NCBI RefSeq assembly: GCF_944324745.1
Contig: NZ_CALUXO010000067.1
Span: 1-37,766 of the forward strand
Direction of reading: 5' to 3'
Length of the DNA stretch: 37,766 nucleotides
Origin: an uncultured Thomasclavelia sp.
Lineage (GTDB): Bacteria; Bacillota_I; Bacilli_A; Erysipelotrichales; Coprobacillaceae
The notes under the pieces were generated by a model. It was given only the letters and a program-made list of their open reading frames with translations. It made no database searches and was not told the DNA's origin. Each line of letters begins with the position of its first letter. Within the stretch, counting starts at the first letter, position 1. Below, in pieces: positions 15,116 to 37,031 of the stretch. The position numbers were made by a program, and so were the translations under genes.

Positions 15116-16612
15116 TTATTCTCCTTCATTAAGAATCTTTTTCTTATAAAAATTAGATGATTTTTGTAACTCTTGATCAAAGATTTCTAAACCTATTTCT
15201 TCAATAATCGTCTCTTTGTCAGAAAACAGATTAGTTCCTAATCCTAATCTATCACCGTCAATATTAGCTCCCATCGCTGCTAATATCGTTGGATACATAT
15301 CCATAGCACTAAAATTTCTTTGTGTAGTTTGAACTGGTTCAACTGCACTATTAATAATACAGTTGTATGGAGTTCTTATATAATCACTATCTATATTACT
15401 AAAAAACTTTTCAGCCATACTTTTATGATCACCAGTAATTACAATTGTAGTATTTTCATACCATGATTGTTGCTTGCACCAATTTATAAAGTTTCCAACT
15501 TGACGTGATTGACATTCAATTACATTAGCATATTGATTTTCATGATTATTTTGGCACAAATCACATAAATATCCATCAGGTGTATGAGTATCGATAGTTA
15601 CCATAGATATATTAAATGGTTGATCACCAGCTGCCAAATTAGTAATATCCTTTTTAGCAATTTCAAATAGCTTAGAATCTTCAATTCCCCAGAAAACAAA
15701 ATAATCTGATGGTATTTCTCCACTAGCTACAAAACTATTATAATCACGAATAATATAATTACCATGTTGCTTATAAAAATTTGAAGTACCCCCAAAGTCA
15801 GCATCAGAGCCACAAAGAAATTCATTTACATAACCGTTATCTTCTAATACTTCTCCTAAAGAATATCCCCCTGGTAAATAAGGGGTAGTTTCATCATACT
15901 TATCACTAGTTATTGATAGTGATAATGGAATTCCCATATCTTGAGATACATGAGAGGCAATAGTCCATTGGGTTCCATCAATAGTCTGCCAACCACCTAA
16001 ATTATTATCATGAGAAAAATTGATATTTTCATTAGCTAACTCTGTTAATTCTGGAATATAGTTTTCTTGTTCAGCGCCACCGCTTAGAATATCTGCGTAA
16101 GTATTTTCAATTGACTCTAAGTAGATATGAATTAAATTTCTTTTTTCTCCATCAAAAGTAATATCAACGCTACTAGGATCAACATAATATCTTTCGTAGA
16201 TATCAGTACTTTGTATGGAATTACTAATATACCCATAAATATTATAATTATACACCGTAAAAATCAAAGAACCAACCAAACAACAGATTCCCCATTTGAT
16301 AAAATGTTTTTTTAGATAGTCACTTAAATTACTATTATTTCTTTTTAATATTTTTTGTATCTTATAGAATAATAAATTAAAGATTACTACAACTATCAGA
16401 CTAATAGGAACAGCAAAAAGAAACCAATCTAAATATACTCCAGTATCTGTTCCTTCCATTGGCACTTTTAAATGATATACTATTTGATTCAATGTTTTTA
16501 CAGAAAAGGTACGATTACCCCAAATAATCGATGCAACAATTAAAACACTAATAAATACCAGCATTGTTCCAATAATATACTTTTTTTCTATCTTTCTTAT
16601 TTTCTTTATCAT
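15116..16612 (-). CDS. MdoB/LtaS-family glycerol-phosphate transferase (GacH-like)
   Basis: Start set at 16612 (498 residues) because AAGAGGA is seven bases upstream; a longer frame to 16639 has no ribosome binding site. Three N-terminal membrane segments (about 12-31, 63-85, 107-125) are followed by an extracellular sulfatase-fold domain. LIHIYLESIENTY carries the metal glutamate (about E166), DGTQWTIASH the likely nucleophile threonine (about T214), and DTHTPDG and ITGDHKSM the metal histidines. The family transfers sn-glycerol 1-phosphate from phosphatidylglycerol outside the cell. At this size and in this locus it resembles GacH, which decorates the streptococcal polysaccharide, more than LtaS, which has five membrane helices. 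Confidence 0.85.
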   Translation of the reverse strand: MIKKIRKIEKKYIIGTMLVFISVLIVASIIWGNRTFSVKTLNQIVYHLKVPMEGTDTGVYLDWFLFAVPISLIVVVIFNLLFYKIQKILKRNNSNLSDYLKKHFIKWGICCLVGSLIFTVYNYNIYGYISNSIQSTDIYERYYVDPSSVDITFDGEKRNLIHIYLESIENTYADILSGGAEQENYIPELTELANENINFSHDNNLGGWQTIDGTQWTIASHVSQDMGIPLSLSITSDKYDETTPYLPGGYSLGEVLEDNGYVNEFLCGSDADFGGTSNFYKQHGNYIIRDYNSFVASGEIPSDYFVFWGIEDSKLFEIAKKDITNLAAGDQPFNISMVTIDTHTPDGYLCDLCQNNHENQYANVIECQSRQVGNFINWCKQQSWYENTTIVITGDHKSMAEKFFSNIDSDYIRTPYNCIINSAVEPVQTTQRNFSAMDMYPTILAAMGANIDGDRLGLGTNLFSDKETIIEEIGLEIFDQELQKSSNFYKKKILNEGE

Positions 16613-16790
16613 TTTTAGTCCTCTTAATTTAAATTCCATATTATTCTATCATATATTAAGCAATTATGAAACATAAGAAAAGTGTGAAATAATCACTATT
16701 ATTTTACTATATTCTATTTTATTATTTTTCAAATAAAATCAAAACACATTAAATCACTAAAAATTTTTCTTTCCTTCTTCGCTTCATTTT

Positions 16791-16846
16791 CTTAATGTTT
16801 TCTTAATATTTATTAAGAAAACATTAAGAAAACATTAATTTTTTTT
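16791..16846. promoter_or_regulatory. 18-bp perfect inverted repeat with 11-bp direct repeats
   Basis: Arms at 16791-16808 (CTTAATGTTTTCTTAATA) and 16811-16828 are perfectly complementary with a 2-base centre. The right side continues as direct repeats of ATTAAGAAAAC with an 11-base period (16812-16822, 16823-16833, partial 16834-16838), then eight T. It lies 12-60 bases upstream of an extended -10 for licD and about 180 bases upstream of the GacH-like gene on the other strand. The helical period suggests an operator for a winged-helix response regulator; a hairpin/terminator function is the alternative. Confidence 0.5.
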
Positions 16847-16855
16847 ATCAAAATA

Positions 16856-16864
16856 TGTTACAAT
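16856..16864 (+). promoter_or_regulatory. Extended -10 element upstream of licD
   Basis: TGTTACAAT (TG-N-TACAAT) lies 42 bases before the licD start. The matching -35 region (about 16836-16841) is poor and directly abuts the repeated ATTAAGAAAAC elements, which would fit an activator-dependent promoter. Confidence 0.5.
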
Positions 16865-16906
16865 AACTTAACAATAAAAATAACAATACACTAAAAGGAG
16901 CCAAAA

Positions 16907-34376: not shown

Positions 34377-37031
34377 TTATATTGCCGGATCAGTTGGATC
34401 CCATGTCTGTGTTAACGGTATTTTTTGTGCAGACGGTTTACTTAATGGATCATTACCGCTAGGAACAATAATCACTTTTGTTCCTAACGGGCAATAATCG
34501 TATATCCATTTAGCATCTGCCACTGTTAACCTAATACATCCATGTGAACATGTAGTTCCAAGTTGATTATACATCCTTGCAGATAATGAATAAATATCAC
34601 CATTTCTATTATAAGGTACTGAATGAAATAAATATCCATTAACTATTCTTGTAGAATATTGTCCATAGCTAGGTCCCATCAATTCTCTCCAACGATATTT
34701 TACTGGTGTGTAATAAATTCCGACCGGTGTGTCATATCCAACTGAACAAATAAATCGCTTATATGCTATAATTTTATTTCCGTTTCCATCAGGAGCTAAA
34801 ACAGTTACAACATTTGTTGCCTTATTTACTCTTAAATCATATGTACCAGGTAAAGTATATAATGTCTGTATGTCTTCTTGCTTATTTCCATTGTTATCAT
34901 AGCATACTAAATAGCCGTTATTATTTTTAAAAGTCAAACAAGCTTTACTTGAAGCATCTGGAGCTCCTACTCCTTTTAGATAGGTTTTGATTTGAATTGC
35001 TTCTATTCTAAAACTAGCTCCTATTGTTCCAGCCTGATTATCATTACAAGTCCAATCCATCCAACCTATATTTTGTACGTATACTCGATAATAAATATCA
35101 TAATAATTTGCTATTTCTCCTGCTAATCGTATCTTAATTGCTTCAATACGTTTTGACTGATTTTCTGTTCCAGCAATTTCTCCATTACTAGCATAATTCA
35201 TCCAACCATAATCTTGAACATGAACACTATATTCAACATTTCCAGAATAATTATCATTACCTAATGATATTTTTATTGCTTCTAATCGGTAACTCTTTCC
35301 TGTTGTTCCACTTGTTGTTCCATTGGAAACTTGACTTGTCCAACCTAAATTTTGAACATGTGTTGTGTAATAAACGCTTTCACTTTTTACAAATGGTCTA
35401 TCAGTCGAACCGGGTGGAACTGCATCTTTTTCAACAAGTATTATTTCTATTGCTTCAATTCTACAATTCATTCCTTCGGTTCCAGCCTTATTATCATTTT
35501 TAGCCCAATCTAACCAACCAATTTCTTGGACATGAGCTCGATAATAAACATCATAATAATTAGAAATATCTCCTGTCAATTTTATTTTAATAGCCTCTAC
35601 TCTTAATTTTTGACCAGTTGTACCAGCTATTACTCCATTTTTTTGATATGATTGCCATCCGATATTTTGAACATGGGTACTATATTCAATATCCCCAGTA
35701 TATCCAACATTTCCAAGATTGATTTTTATTGCTTCTATTCTCTTTGACTTACCAATCGTTCCACTTGTTGTTCCATCAGCTACGCTTCCCATCCATCCAT
35801 AATCCTCTACATGTGTTGAATAATAAATGTTACCTGGCGTTTTATAAGGCTGATTAGTATTACCAGGAGCTGATTCTCCTTTAGGCACCAGCTCAACTTG
35901 AATAGCTTCTACTCTATAAGCATATCCATCAGTCCCGGCAATCTCATCATTCTTTGCCCAATCTAGCCAACCAATCTCTTGGACATGAACTCGATAATAA
36001 ACATCATAATAATTTGCAATTTCCCCAGACAAATTAATCCTTATTGCCTCTATTTGCTTTTTTTGACCGGTTGTTCCTGCTATTGTTCCATTTGATTTAT
36101 ATTCCTGCCAACCATAATCTTGTACTTTAACATTATATTGAATATCCCCTGTATATTCATAGTTATCTAGATATAATTTTATTGCTTCTATTCGTTTTGA
36201 TTGCCTTTCTGTACCAGATAATTTTCCATCGCCAACATTGCCTTGCCAGCCAATGTCAGCTATATGACTAGAATAATAAACTCTACCAGGGCTAACAAAG
36301 CACCTATTAGTTGGACCTGGTGCATCTTCACCTTTTTTCACTAATTTGATTTCTATACCTTCAAGACGATAGCTATAACTAGCACTACCTGCAGCTTTAC
36401 CATTACTAGCCCAGTCTAACCATCCATAATTTTGAATGTGTACACGATAGTAAACATCATAGTAATTTGCAATTTCTCCGGTTAGTTTTATTTTGATAGC
36501 TTCTAATCGTAAACTTTGTCCTTCAGTTCCACTTTTATTGTTATTATCTACAAAATTAGTCCAGCCTAAATTTTGAATATGTGTGGCATAGCTAATACTC
36601 CCTTCAACGGTATTATCAACTAATTGTATTTTAATACTTTCCAATCTTTTAGATTTACCAATTGTCCCCGCTGTTTTACCATCTTTTACATATTCTTGCC
36701 AACCAATATCCTGTACATGGGTTGAATACTCAACACTTGATGATATATCATCTAATGTTTCTTCTTTATTTACAGTATCAATATTATCTTTTGATTCATT
36801 ATCCTCTATTTCTTCTTGTTTTTGCTCATTATTATTTGAGTAGTCACTAATCCCTCTTTCTTCAATTGTTTCTGTATTATCTATATCGGAAACATCCGTA
36901 TTTTCAGAATTAATATTGTTTTTCTCAACCGTTTCTGAAGAGTTATTTTGGTCATCAATTCCATAAACATTAGATACTGTTAGAGTAAAAATGAAACATA
37001 ACGATATAAAAACTGTAAGTATTTTTTTCAT
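34377..37031 (-). CDS. Secreted L,D-transpeptidase with 12 ChW repeats
   Basis: Product of 884 residues. Signal peptide 1-24 (MKKILTVFISLCFIFTLTVS, cleavage near VYG), an acidic Asn/Asp/Glu-rich linker (25-98), twelve ChW repeats (about 100-686) each with a GW dipeptide and an R-x-E-A/S/G-I block, then a YkuD domain (about 725-857). The catalytic motif SHGCIR has H830 and C832, with H803 in YLFHSVPY. YkuD enzymes make 3-3 cross-links in peptidoglycan or attach proteins to it; ChW repeats are thought to bind cell-surface polymers. Conserved repeat order suggests tethering of the enzyme to the wall. AGGAGGTG precedes the ATG. Confidence 0.93.
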   Translation of the reverse strand: MKKILTVFISLCFIFTLTVSNVYGIDDQNNSSETVEKNNINSENTDVSDIDNTETIEERGISDYSNNNEQKQEEIEDNESKDNIDTVNKEETLDDISSSVEYSTHVQDIGWQEYVKDGKTAGTIGKSKRLESIKIQLVDNTVEGSISYATHIQNLGWTNFVDNNNKSGTEGQSLRLEAIKIKLTGEIANYYDVYYRVHIQNYGWLDWASNGKAAGSASYSYRLEGIEIKLVKKGEDAPGPTNRCFVSPGRVYYSSHIADIGWQGNVGDGKLSGTERQSKRIEAIKLYLDNYEYTGDIQYNVKVQDYGWQEYKSNGTIAGTTGQKKQIEAIRINLSGEIANYYDVYYRVHVQEIGWLDWAKNDEIAGTDGYAYRVEAIQVELVPKGESAPGNTNQPYKTPGNIYYSTHVEDYGWMGSVADGTTSGTIGKSKRIEAIKINLGNVGYTGDIEYSTHVQNIGWQSYQKNGVIAGTTGQKLRVEAIKIKLTGDISNYYDVYYRAHVQEIGWLDWAKNDNKAGTEGMNCRIEAIEIILVEKDAVPPGSTDRPFVKSESVYYTTHVQNLGWTSQVSNGTTSGTTGKSYRLEAIKISLGNDNYSGNVEYSVHVQDYGWMNYASNGEIAGTENQSKRIEAIKIRLAGEIANYYDIYYRVYVQNIGWMDWTCNDNQAGTIGASFRIEAIQIKTYLKGVGAPDASSKACLTFKNNNGYLVCYDNNGNKQEDIQTLYTLPGTYDLRVNKATNVVTVLAPDGNGNKIIAYKRFICSVGYDTPVGIYYTPVKYRWRELMGPSYGQYSTRIVNGYLFHSVPYNRNGDIYSLSARMYNQLGTTCSHGCIRLTVADAKWIYDYCPLGTKVIIVPSGNDPLSKPSAQKIPLTQTWDPTDPAI
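34974..36734 (-). repeat. ChW repeat array, four copies of a three-repeat block
   Basis: GW dipeptides stand at residues 110, 156, 203, 260, 307, 354, 411, 458, 505, 563, 609 and 656, that is spacings of 46-47, 47, 57-58 repeated. Each third repeat starts D-V/I-Y-Y-R and ends with an extra proline/glycine-rich spacer (for example APGPTNR, APGNTNQ, PPGSTDR). The period of the whole block is 150-152 residues (about 453 bases), so the array grew by duplication of three-repeat blocks. Confidence 0.9.

Follow-up and report, generated by a model that had tools for sequence, protein, structure and literature searches.

The question raised by this locus is what a long, perfect palindrome does in front of a licD-family gene. 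The window (the whole stretch of DNA that was analysed, 37,766 nucleotides from an uncultured Thomasclavelia sp.) carries it in the intergenic region at 16640-16906, which separates two divergent genes: the licD-family gene and a sulfatase-fold, phosphoglycerol-transferase-like gene that a preliminary description of this DNA called GacH-like (Table 1). The latter scores 195.5 bits against the NCBIfam model of phosphoglycerol transferase I, under the cut-off of 572. Judged from the sequence, the element is probably (at a probability of about 0.68) an operator through which a response regulator of the OmpR/PhoB family acts on licD. A limited literature search brought up no paper on such regulation in this genus, and the locus offers a defined element by which a genus of gut commensals could control a LicD-type surface gene.

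Table 1. Features of the licD upstream region and the genes that flank it (window coordinates)
Feature	Coordinates	Strand	Basis or detail
Sulfatase-fold divergent gene, 507 aa, phosphoglycerol-transferase-like (GacH-like)	15116..16639	-	Pfam PF00884
Weak candidate promoter of divergent gene, TTCATA-16-TAGAAT with TG	16643..16670	-	promoter scan
Left arm of perfect inverted repeat, 22 nt	16787..16808	+	inverted-repeat search
Box 1, CTTAAT (ATTAAG on - strand)	16791..16796	-	TTAA core 16792, -67 from -10 hexamer
Box 2, CTTAAT (ATTAAG on - strand)	16802..16807	-	TTAA core 16803, -56
Right arm of perfect inverted repeat, 22 nt	16811..16832	+	inverted-repeat search
Box 3, ATTAAG	16812..16817	+	TTAA core 16813, -46
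Box 4, ATTAAG	16823..16828	+	TTAA core 16824, -35
Box 5, ATTAAT	16834..16839	+	TTAA core 16835, -24; over place of -35 hexamer
Extended -10 of licD, ATATGTTACAAT (hexamer TACAAT 16859-16864)	16853..16864	+	sequence; TATG precedes hexamer in both relatives too
licD-family gene, 271 aa	16907..17722	+	Pfam PF04991, E 3.1e-44

The inverted repeat is real, and with arms of 22 nt it is longer than the 18 first claimed for it. Its arms are 100% complementary and separated by 2 bases; the runner-up among the perfect inverted repeats of the window (loop up to 12) has 14-nt arms, and none of 2000 dinucleotide shuffles of the intergenic region (267 bp), nor any of 40 shuffles of the window, had arms of 18 nt or more. 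This striking palindrome is a row of five short repeats placed one turn of the DNA apart: five boxes with a TTAA core underlie it at steps of 10-11 bp, with the proximal boxes oriented towards licD and the two distal boxes in the opposite direction. The direct repeats with 11-base spacing of the preliminary description were likewise recovered (ATTAAGAAAAC starts at 16812 and again at 16823, and ATTAAT comes next at 16834). When scored as a three-box array of WTTAAG at 11-bp steps the region reaches 17 of 18, which was attained in 0 of 1000 shuffles, and other spacings from 8 to 15 bp give scores of 12-14 only.

The row ends at a promoter of the extended -10 type, TATGTTACAAT. At a 17-bp spacer the place of the -35 hexamer is taken by TAATTT (16836-16841), which matches TTGACA poorly; the repeats thus reach the -35 position, a good -35 is missing and the extended TG is present, as had been described. 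Direct repeats about 11 bp apart that replace the -35 in front of an extended -10 are the layout of activators of the OmpR/PhoB family. Both features of such operators occur upstream of licD, namely at least two direct repeats at about 11 bp and a box lying over the -35 (box 5, relative to a -10 assigned by eye).

The genus sample comprised nine genomes, and close licD homologs (74-75% identity) are found only in the source genome and in two relatives, G001 and G006. We took G001 to be T. cocleata DSM 1551, which has the same sequence around licD (NZ_FOIN01000017.1). As a MAFFT alignment of the three promoters was out of register at the -10 of the source genome, positions were counted from the -10 hexamers instead, these being chosen by eye in all three species. 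The TTAA cores then lie at -66, -55, -44, -34 and -22 in G001, and at -67, -56, -45 and -22 in G006, with TTAG at -34 (compare Table 1). All three species whose licD is close (at least 74% identity) thus keep the spacing of the boxes to the promoter, and also TATG before the -10; the distance from the -10 to the ATG varies (48 bp in the source genome, 38 bp in G001 and 40 bp in G006). The 11-bp periodicity was matched by 0 of 5000 shuffles for the source genome, 7 for G001 and 150 for G006, and by none when pooled, and only 1 of 5000 shuffles placed G001 and G006 as much in phase with the source genome. Further TTAA copies stand outside the register, at -98, -90 and -83 in G001 and at -74 in G006. 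Taken alone, G006 is modest: its three boxes are matched by 86 of 1000 shuffles, in addition to the periodicity figure just given, and its array is not among the three-box matches with up to two mismatches. Conservation was scored in these three species. Among farther LicD relatives (55% identity and below), in G020 the gene lies closely behind the preceding gene, and in G033 no such array was seen by eye in the spacer of about 110 bases.

The perfect dyad itself is absent from the licD upstream regions of G001 and G006. It is peculiar to one species, and the phasing to the promoter is what the relatives keep. Accordingly, of the expected conservation in relatives, the part that held is the phased row of boxes, in register in both G001 and G006, and the part that failed is the palindrome. 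The case illustrates a way to separate a functional operator from an eye-catching palindrome, in that the phasing is conserved and the palindrome is not. These results bear directly on an operator for a dimeric regulator of another class (MarR, Xre or TetR-like), in which the palindrome itself would be recognised. Such a protein would suit the perfect 22-nt dyad, but the loss of the dyad in two species that retain the 11-bp phasing, together with the direct orientation of the internal repeats, makes it unlikely. They bear equally on intrinsic curvature, by which A/T tracts phased at 11 bp could lift the promoter without any protein. In the source genome A4 and T4 tracts are indeed phased with the boxes. 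However, among 11 four-letter words with at least three copies there, only TCTT, TTCT and TTAA are phased in the relatives (0, 0 and 1 of 2000 shuffles as well phased), and AAAA and TTTT fall out of phase (277 and 728 of 2000). With TTAA, which contains the flexible TpA step, staying in phase, curvature is an improbable explanation. What is conserved is a phased row of boxes, and neither the palindrome nor A-tract curvature.

A transcribed hairpin acting as terminator or attenuator would explain the predicted fold of the source sequence (-21.9 kcal/mol, z -9.7, 0 of 200 shuffles), the T run behind it, two matches in a terminator scan (overlapping forms) against 0.0 expected, and the weaker hairpins of G001 (z -3.0, 2 of 200) and G006 (z -2.2, 3 of 200; z -0.5 in another segment). 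We nevertheless regard it as distinctly improbable. The hairpin precedes the -10 of licD and separates two divergent genes, so that neither gene's own transcript contains it, and the fold drops sharply in the relatives. Against the definition of an intrinsic terminator, the stem and T run are there, but just 3 of 20 counted pairs are G-C and the position is one between divergent gene starts. Moreover, TTAA is self-complementary, and hairpins therefore follow from the boxes. The least probable of the explanations considered is a Pho box for the PhoB-type regulator L036, which would tie licD to phosphate starvation. In its favour, PhoB-type regulators use 11-bp direct repeats, TTAAGAA-N4-TTAAGAA precedes a polyphosphate kinase gene in the source genome and a Na/Pi cotransporter gene in G002, and RR_1586, an OmpR-family regulator of C. 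difficile, has phosphate-transport targets among those described in PMC6222199. Yet L036, which is encoded behind phoU, has no orthologue in G001. Furthermore, the pst-phoU-phoB operon of the source genome and of G006 is preceded not by TTAAG boxes but by TTTACA-N5-TTAACA, the form of the Bacillus PhoP boxes. Because the pst promoter carries this sequence in both genomes, the Pho regulator appears to read boxes other than the TTAAG type.

The reading as an operator of the OmpR/PhoB family accommodates these observations as follows. A phosphorylated regulator would bind the TTAAG-type boxes as head-to-tail dimers, one helical turn apart, over a row that extends from about 67 bp to about 24 bp before the -10 hexamer. 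The proximal box would substitute for the missing -35, such that the regulator could contact RNA polymerase at the extended -10 promoter, a predicted case of class II activation. In the source species the turn in orientation between the distal and proximal boxes coincides with a perfect palindrome. The boxes, with their phase and conserved register, and the make-up of the promoter are observed; from them we infer the class of the protein, its binding, and activation rather than repression. The suggestion of an OmpR/PhoB-type operator in the preliminary description is therefore upheld as to layout (11-bp phasing, overlap with the -35, register kept in two relatives), and binding is predicted.

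As to what the array controls, the divergent GacH-like gene is probably not its target, because it does not adjoin the array in the relatives. The assumed licD/GacH-like pair is not conserved: in G001 and G006 a glycosyltransferase-like gene is the divergent neighbour of licD. The GacH-like gene of T. cocleata (62% over 286 residues) is found some 5 kb off while the array stays before licD. In the window, about 120 bp separate the array from the weak candidate promoter of the divergent gene, and the promoter scan that yielded it returned 4 promoter-like sites against 2.8 expected. Upstream of the glycosyltransferase-like gene of G001, read on its strand, there is a short inverted repeat plus a T run (ACTAGTATCAATTATAACTAATACTAGC; L007 1280-1350, and L008 for the other strand), which may be a leader terminator. 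At 34377-37031, at the edge of a polysaccharide cluster, the window encodes a large protein that combines an L,D-transpeptidase domain with 12 clostridial hydrophobic-W repeats.

The preliminary description saw no match of the consensus to known Pho, Wal or CovR boxes. It overlooked two others, as WTTAAG-N5-WTTAAG fits the boxes given for CiaR in PMC3091779 and for RR_1586 in PMC6222199. The streptococcal CiaR box is stated as NTTAAG-N5-WTTAAG (PMC3091779); boxes 3 and 4 (ATTAAG-N5-ATTAAG) agree with it letter for letter. In pneumococcus, the lic1 operon is described as having one promoter under CiaRH (PMC13393172), and the lic operon as positively regulated by CiaRH (PMC12507249). A CiaR-like regulator of Bacillus anthracis has been tested with the CiaR consensus (PMC4938410). 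The arrangement at licD differs, however. The csRNA promoters driven by CiaR have one pair, with its second repeat 10 bases before the -10, whereas licD has five boxes with the distal ones inverted; here the second ATTAAG ends at 16828, 30 bases before the -10, and ATTAAT ends at 16839, 19 bases before the -10 that starts at 16859. The operator reported for RR_1586 is DRTTAAGNWWWDRTTAAGNWWW, an 11-nt direct repeat that is required according to one-hybrid selection and gel shift (PMC6222199). To its consensus DRTTAAGNWWW the licD sequence TATTAAGAAAA CATTAAGAAAA matches, by eye, at 21 of 22 positions, the sole mismatch being that the second box starts with C rather than D. C. difficile belongs to another order of Firmicutes, and the likeness is one of box consensus. 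Finally, the VanR box is given in PMC4405338 as (T/C)CGTANGAAA(T/A)T, and the vanG promoter PYG resembles that of licD in its repeated boxes, -10 TACAAT, poor -35 and TAAGAAA core. The boxes compare as CGTANG in VanR and ATTAAG in licD, with 9 of 12 letters shared by eye, counting N, and the CG of the VanR definition is missing at licD. For each of the CiaR, VanR and Pho boxes a defining feature was looked for and found wanting, so we class the array with none of them.

The genome-wide search for ATTAAG-N5-ATTAAG that had been proposed reveals no regulon, with five occurrences against four for the reversed control. Likewise, 16 three-box matches with up to two mismatches were found against 16 in the control, the licD array being the sole one of the 16 with at most one mismatch. 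There was thus no enrichment over reversed controls for these pair and triple patterns. The longer pair KTAAGAA-N4-KTAAGAA occurs at 24 places in the nine genomes versus 18 in the controls. These places include nine vanR promoters, five positions before a VanZ-like gene, two at licD and two before a D-Ala-D-X ligase gene; the rest comprise single places before an LCP-type gene, before a Na/Pi-cotransporter gene and before a polyphosphate kinase gene, along with three that look like chance. Five of the places are in the source genome, two of them in the licD region, against one for the control. An Rfam search of the window had no match at gathering thresholds.

In the source genome, 18 OmpR-family output domains exceed the Pfam cut-off; a weak 19th hit, L054, falls under it and was left out. 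The reciprocal-hit comparison took 27 of 28 domain hits, setting aside L187, a partial domain. The best candidate for the regulator of the licD array, one that we put forward tentatively, is the VanR-family regulator L039 (G000:C76), and the CiaR/ArlR-like L037 and the VanR-like L040 rank behind it. L039 scores 395.7 against the NCBIfam VanR model (cut-off 350) and is followed by a kinase and then a VanZ-like gene. This set of VanR-family regulator, kinase and VanZ-like gene is a core cluster of the genus (L039/L218-L226, in G000:C76 and eight relatives). Upstream of the regulator gene the pair TTAAGAAAATYGTAAGAA is present in 9 of 9 genomes, and on this pattern is predicted to be autoregulatory. 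The copy in the source genome contains TCGTAAGAAAAT, a VanR-box form that fits the enterococcal VanR consensus as stated in PMC4405338. Pairs of the same kind stand before the VanZ-like gene in five genomes, before a D-Ala-D-X ligase gene in two and before an LCP-type gene in one; the G001 ligase with such a pair passes the VanG model (506 over 495).

A model built from the nine vanR sites fits the licD regions of the source genome (2 of 400 shuffles as good) and of G006 (3 of 400), and not that of G001 (185 of 400). Its fit to two of three species weakly favours a VanR-family regulator as the best candidate. An L038-type model fits G001 and G006 (2 and 1 of 400 shuffles) and not the source genome, and no licD region of the three is fitted by a model from the L037, L040 or VanZ-gene sites. 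As seven models were tried on three regions, these results are leads only. The VanR-like L038, whose promoter boxes look right, was rejected in that G006 has no match to it, and the KdpE-like L043 because neither G001 nor G006 contains a reciprocal best hit to it. The recognition helix of L037, VVEVYIRYLRNKM, is by eye the nearest to that of CiaR, VVEVYVSKVRKKL, sharing 7 of 13 residues; the promoter of L037 itself carries different repeats.

More doubtful is the wider proposal that, through this five-box, back-to-back operator, a wall-stress system of the VanR/VanS family might also control the LicD-type phosphotransferase, so that antibiotic-type stress would lead to a changed phosphate decoration of the surface polysaccharide. 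Should the VanR-type link be true, the alternating orientation of the boxes would be uncommon among regulators of this family, and the sensing of wall stress and the decoration of surface polymers would share one switch, as with CiaRH and the lic1 operon in pneumococcus.

Related boxes were encountered elsewhere. TTTAAG-type boxes at 11-bp steps lie between an OmpR-family regulator gene and an ABC-transporter gene in L188 (G001:C37:1026-1064), where four stand in a row, and in L144 (G005). Several TTAAG/TTTATAC-like boxes precede a TrkH-family gene in L147 (G008:C307, around 1500) and resemble the ones that L158 and L155 carry upstream of the P-type ATPase gene.

The ATTAAG pairs at the P-type ATPase gene also led to a conserved, RNA-like leader element, GAAUAAGUGGUGGAGUCUGUCAU followed by AUAAAGC-loop-GCUUUAU and UUAUUC. 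With up to three mismatches it was found in 17 of 98 genomes and in 0 for the reversed control; one match (L276) looks like chance, which leaves 16 genomes from seven genera and two families (L261-L275 and L277, at about base 1500 of each), and the source genome has a shorter form (L155, G000:C8). A comparison with Rfam had no match at E 0.1 or 0.5, and the literature was checked to a limited extent. In all 16 the outer stem has 6-8 of its 8 pairs. In 11 of them a terminator-like hairpin is present with whose 5' arm GGAGUCUGUC can pair at 9-10 of 10 positions; in the other five the best partner found by the script is elsewhere. In L271, GUCUGGC lies opposite CCAGA, a matching change. RNAalifold on five leader rows had 1 of 18 pairs changed on both sides, and no covariation support. 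The element precedes a TrkH/KtrB-type gene in ten genomes and a P-type cation ATPase gene in six (gene types were read from translations, with Pfam run on L261 and L272, one per type). We regard it as a candidate attenuator or riboswitch that would act on the transport of potassium or sodium, and in our view it deserves a study of its own more than the operator does.
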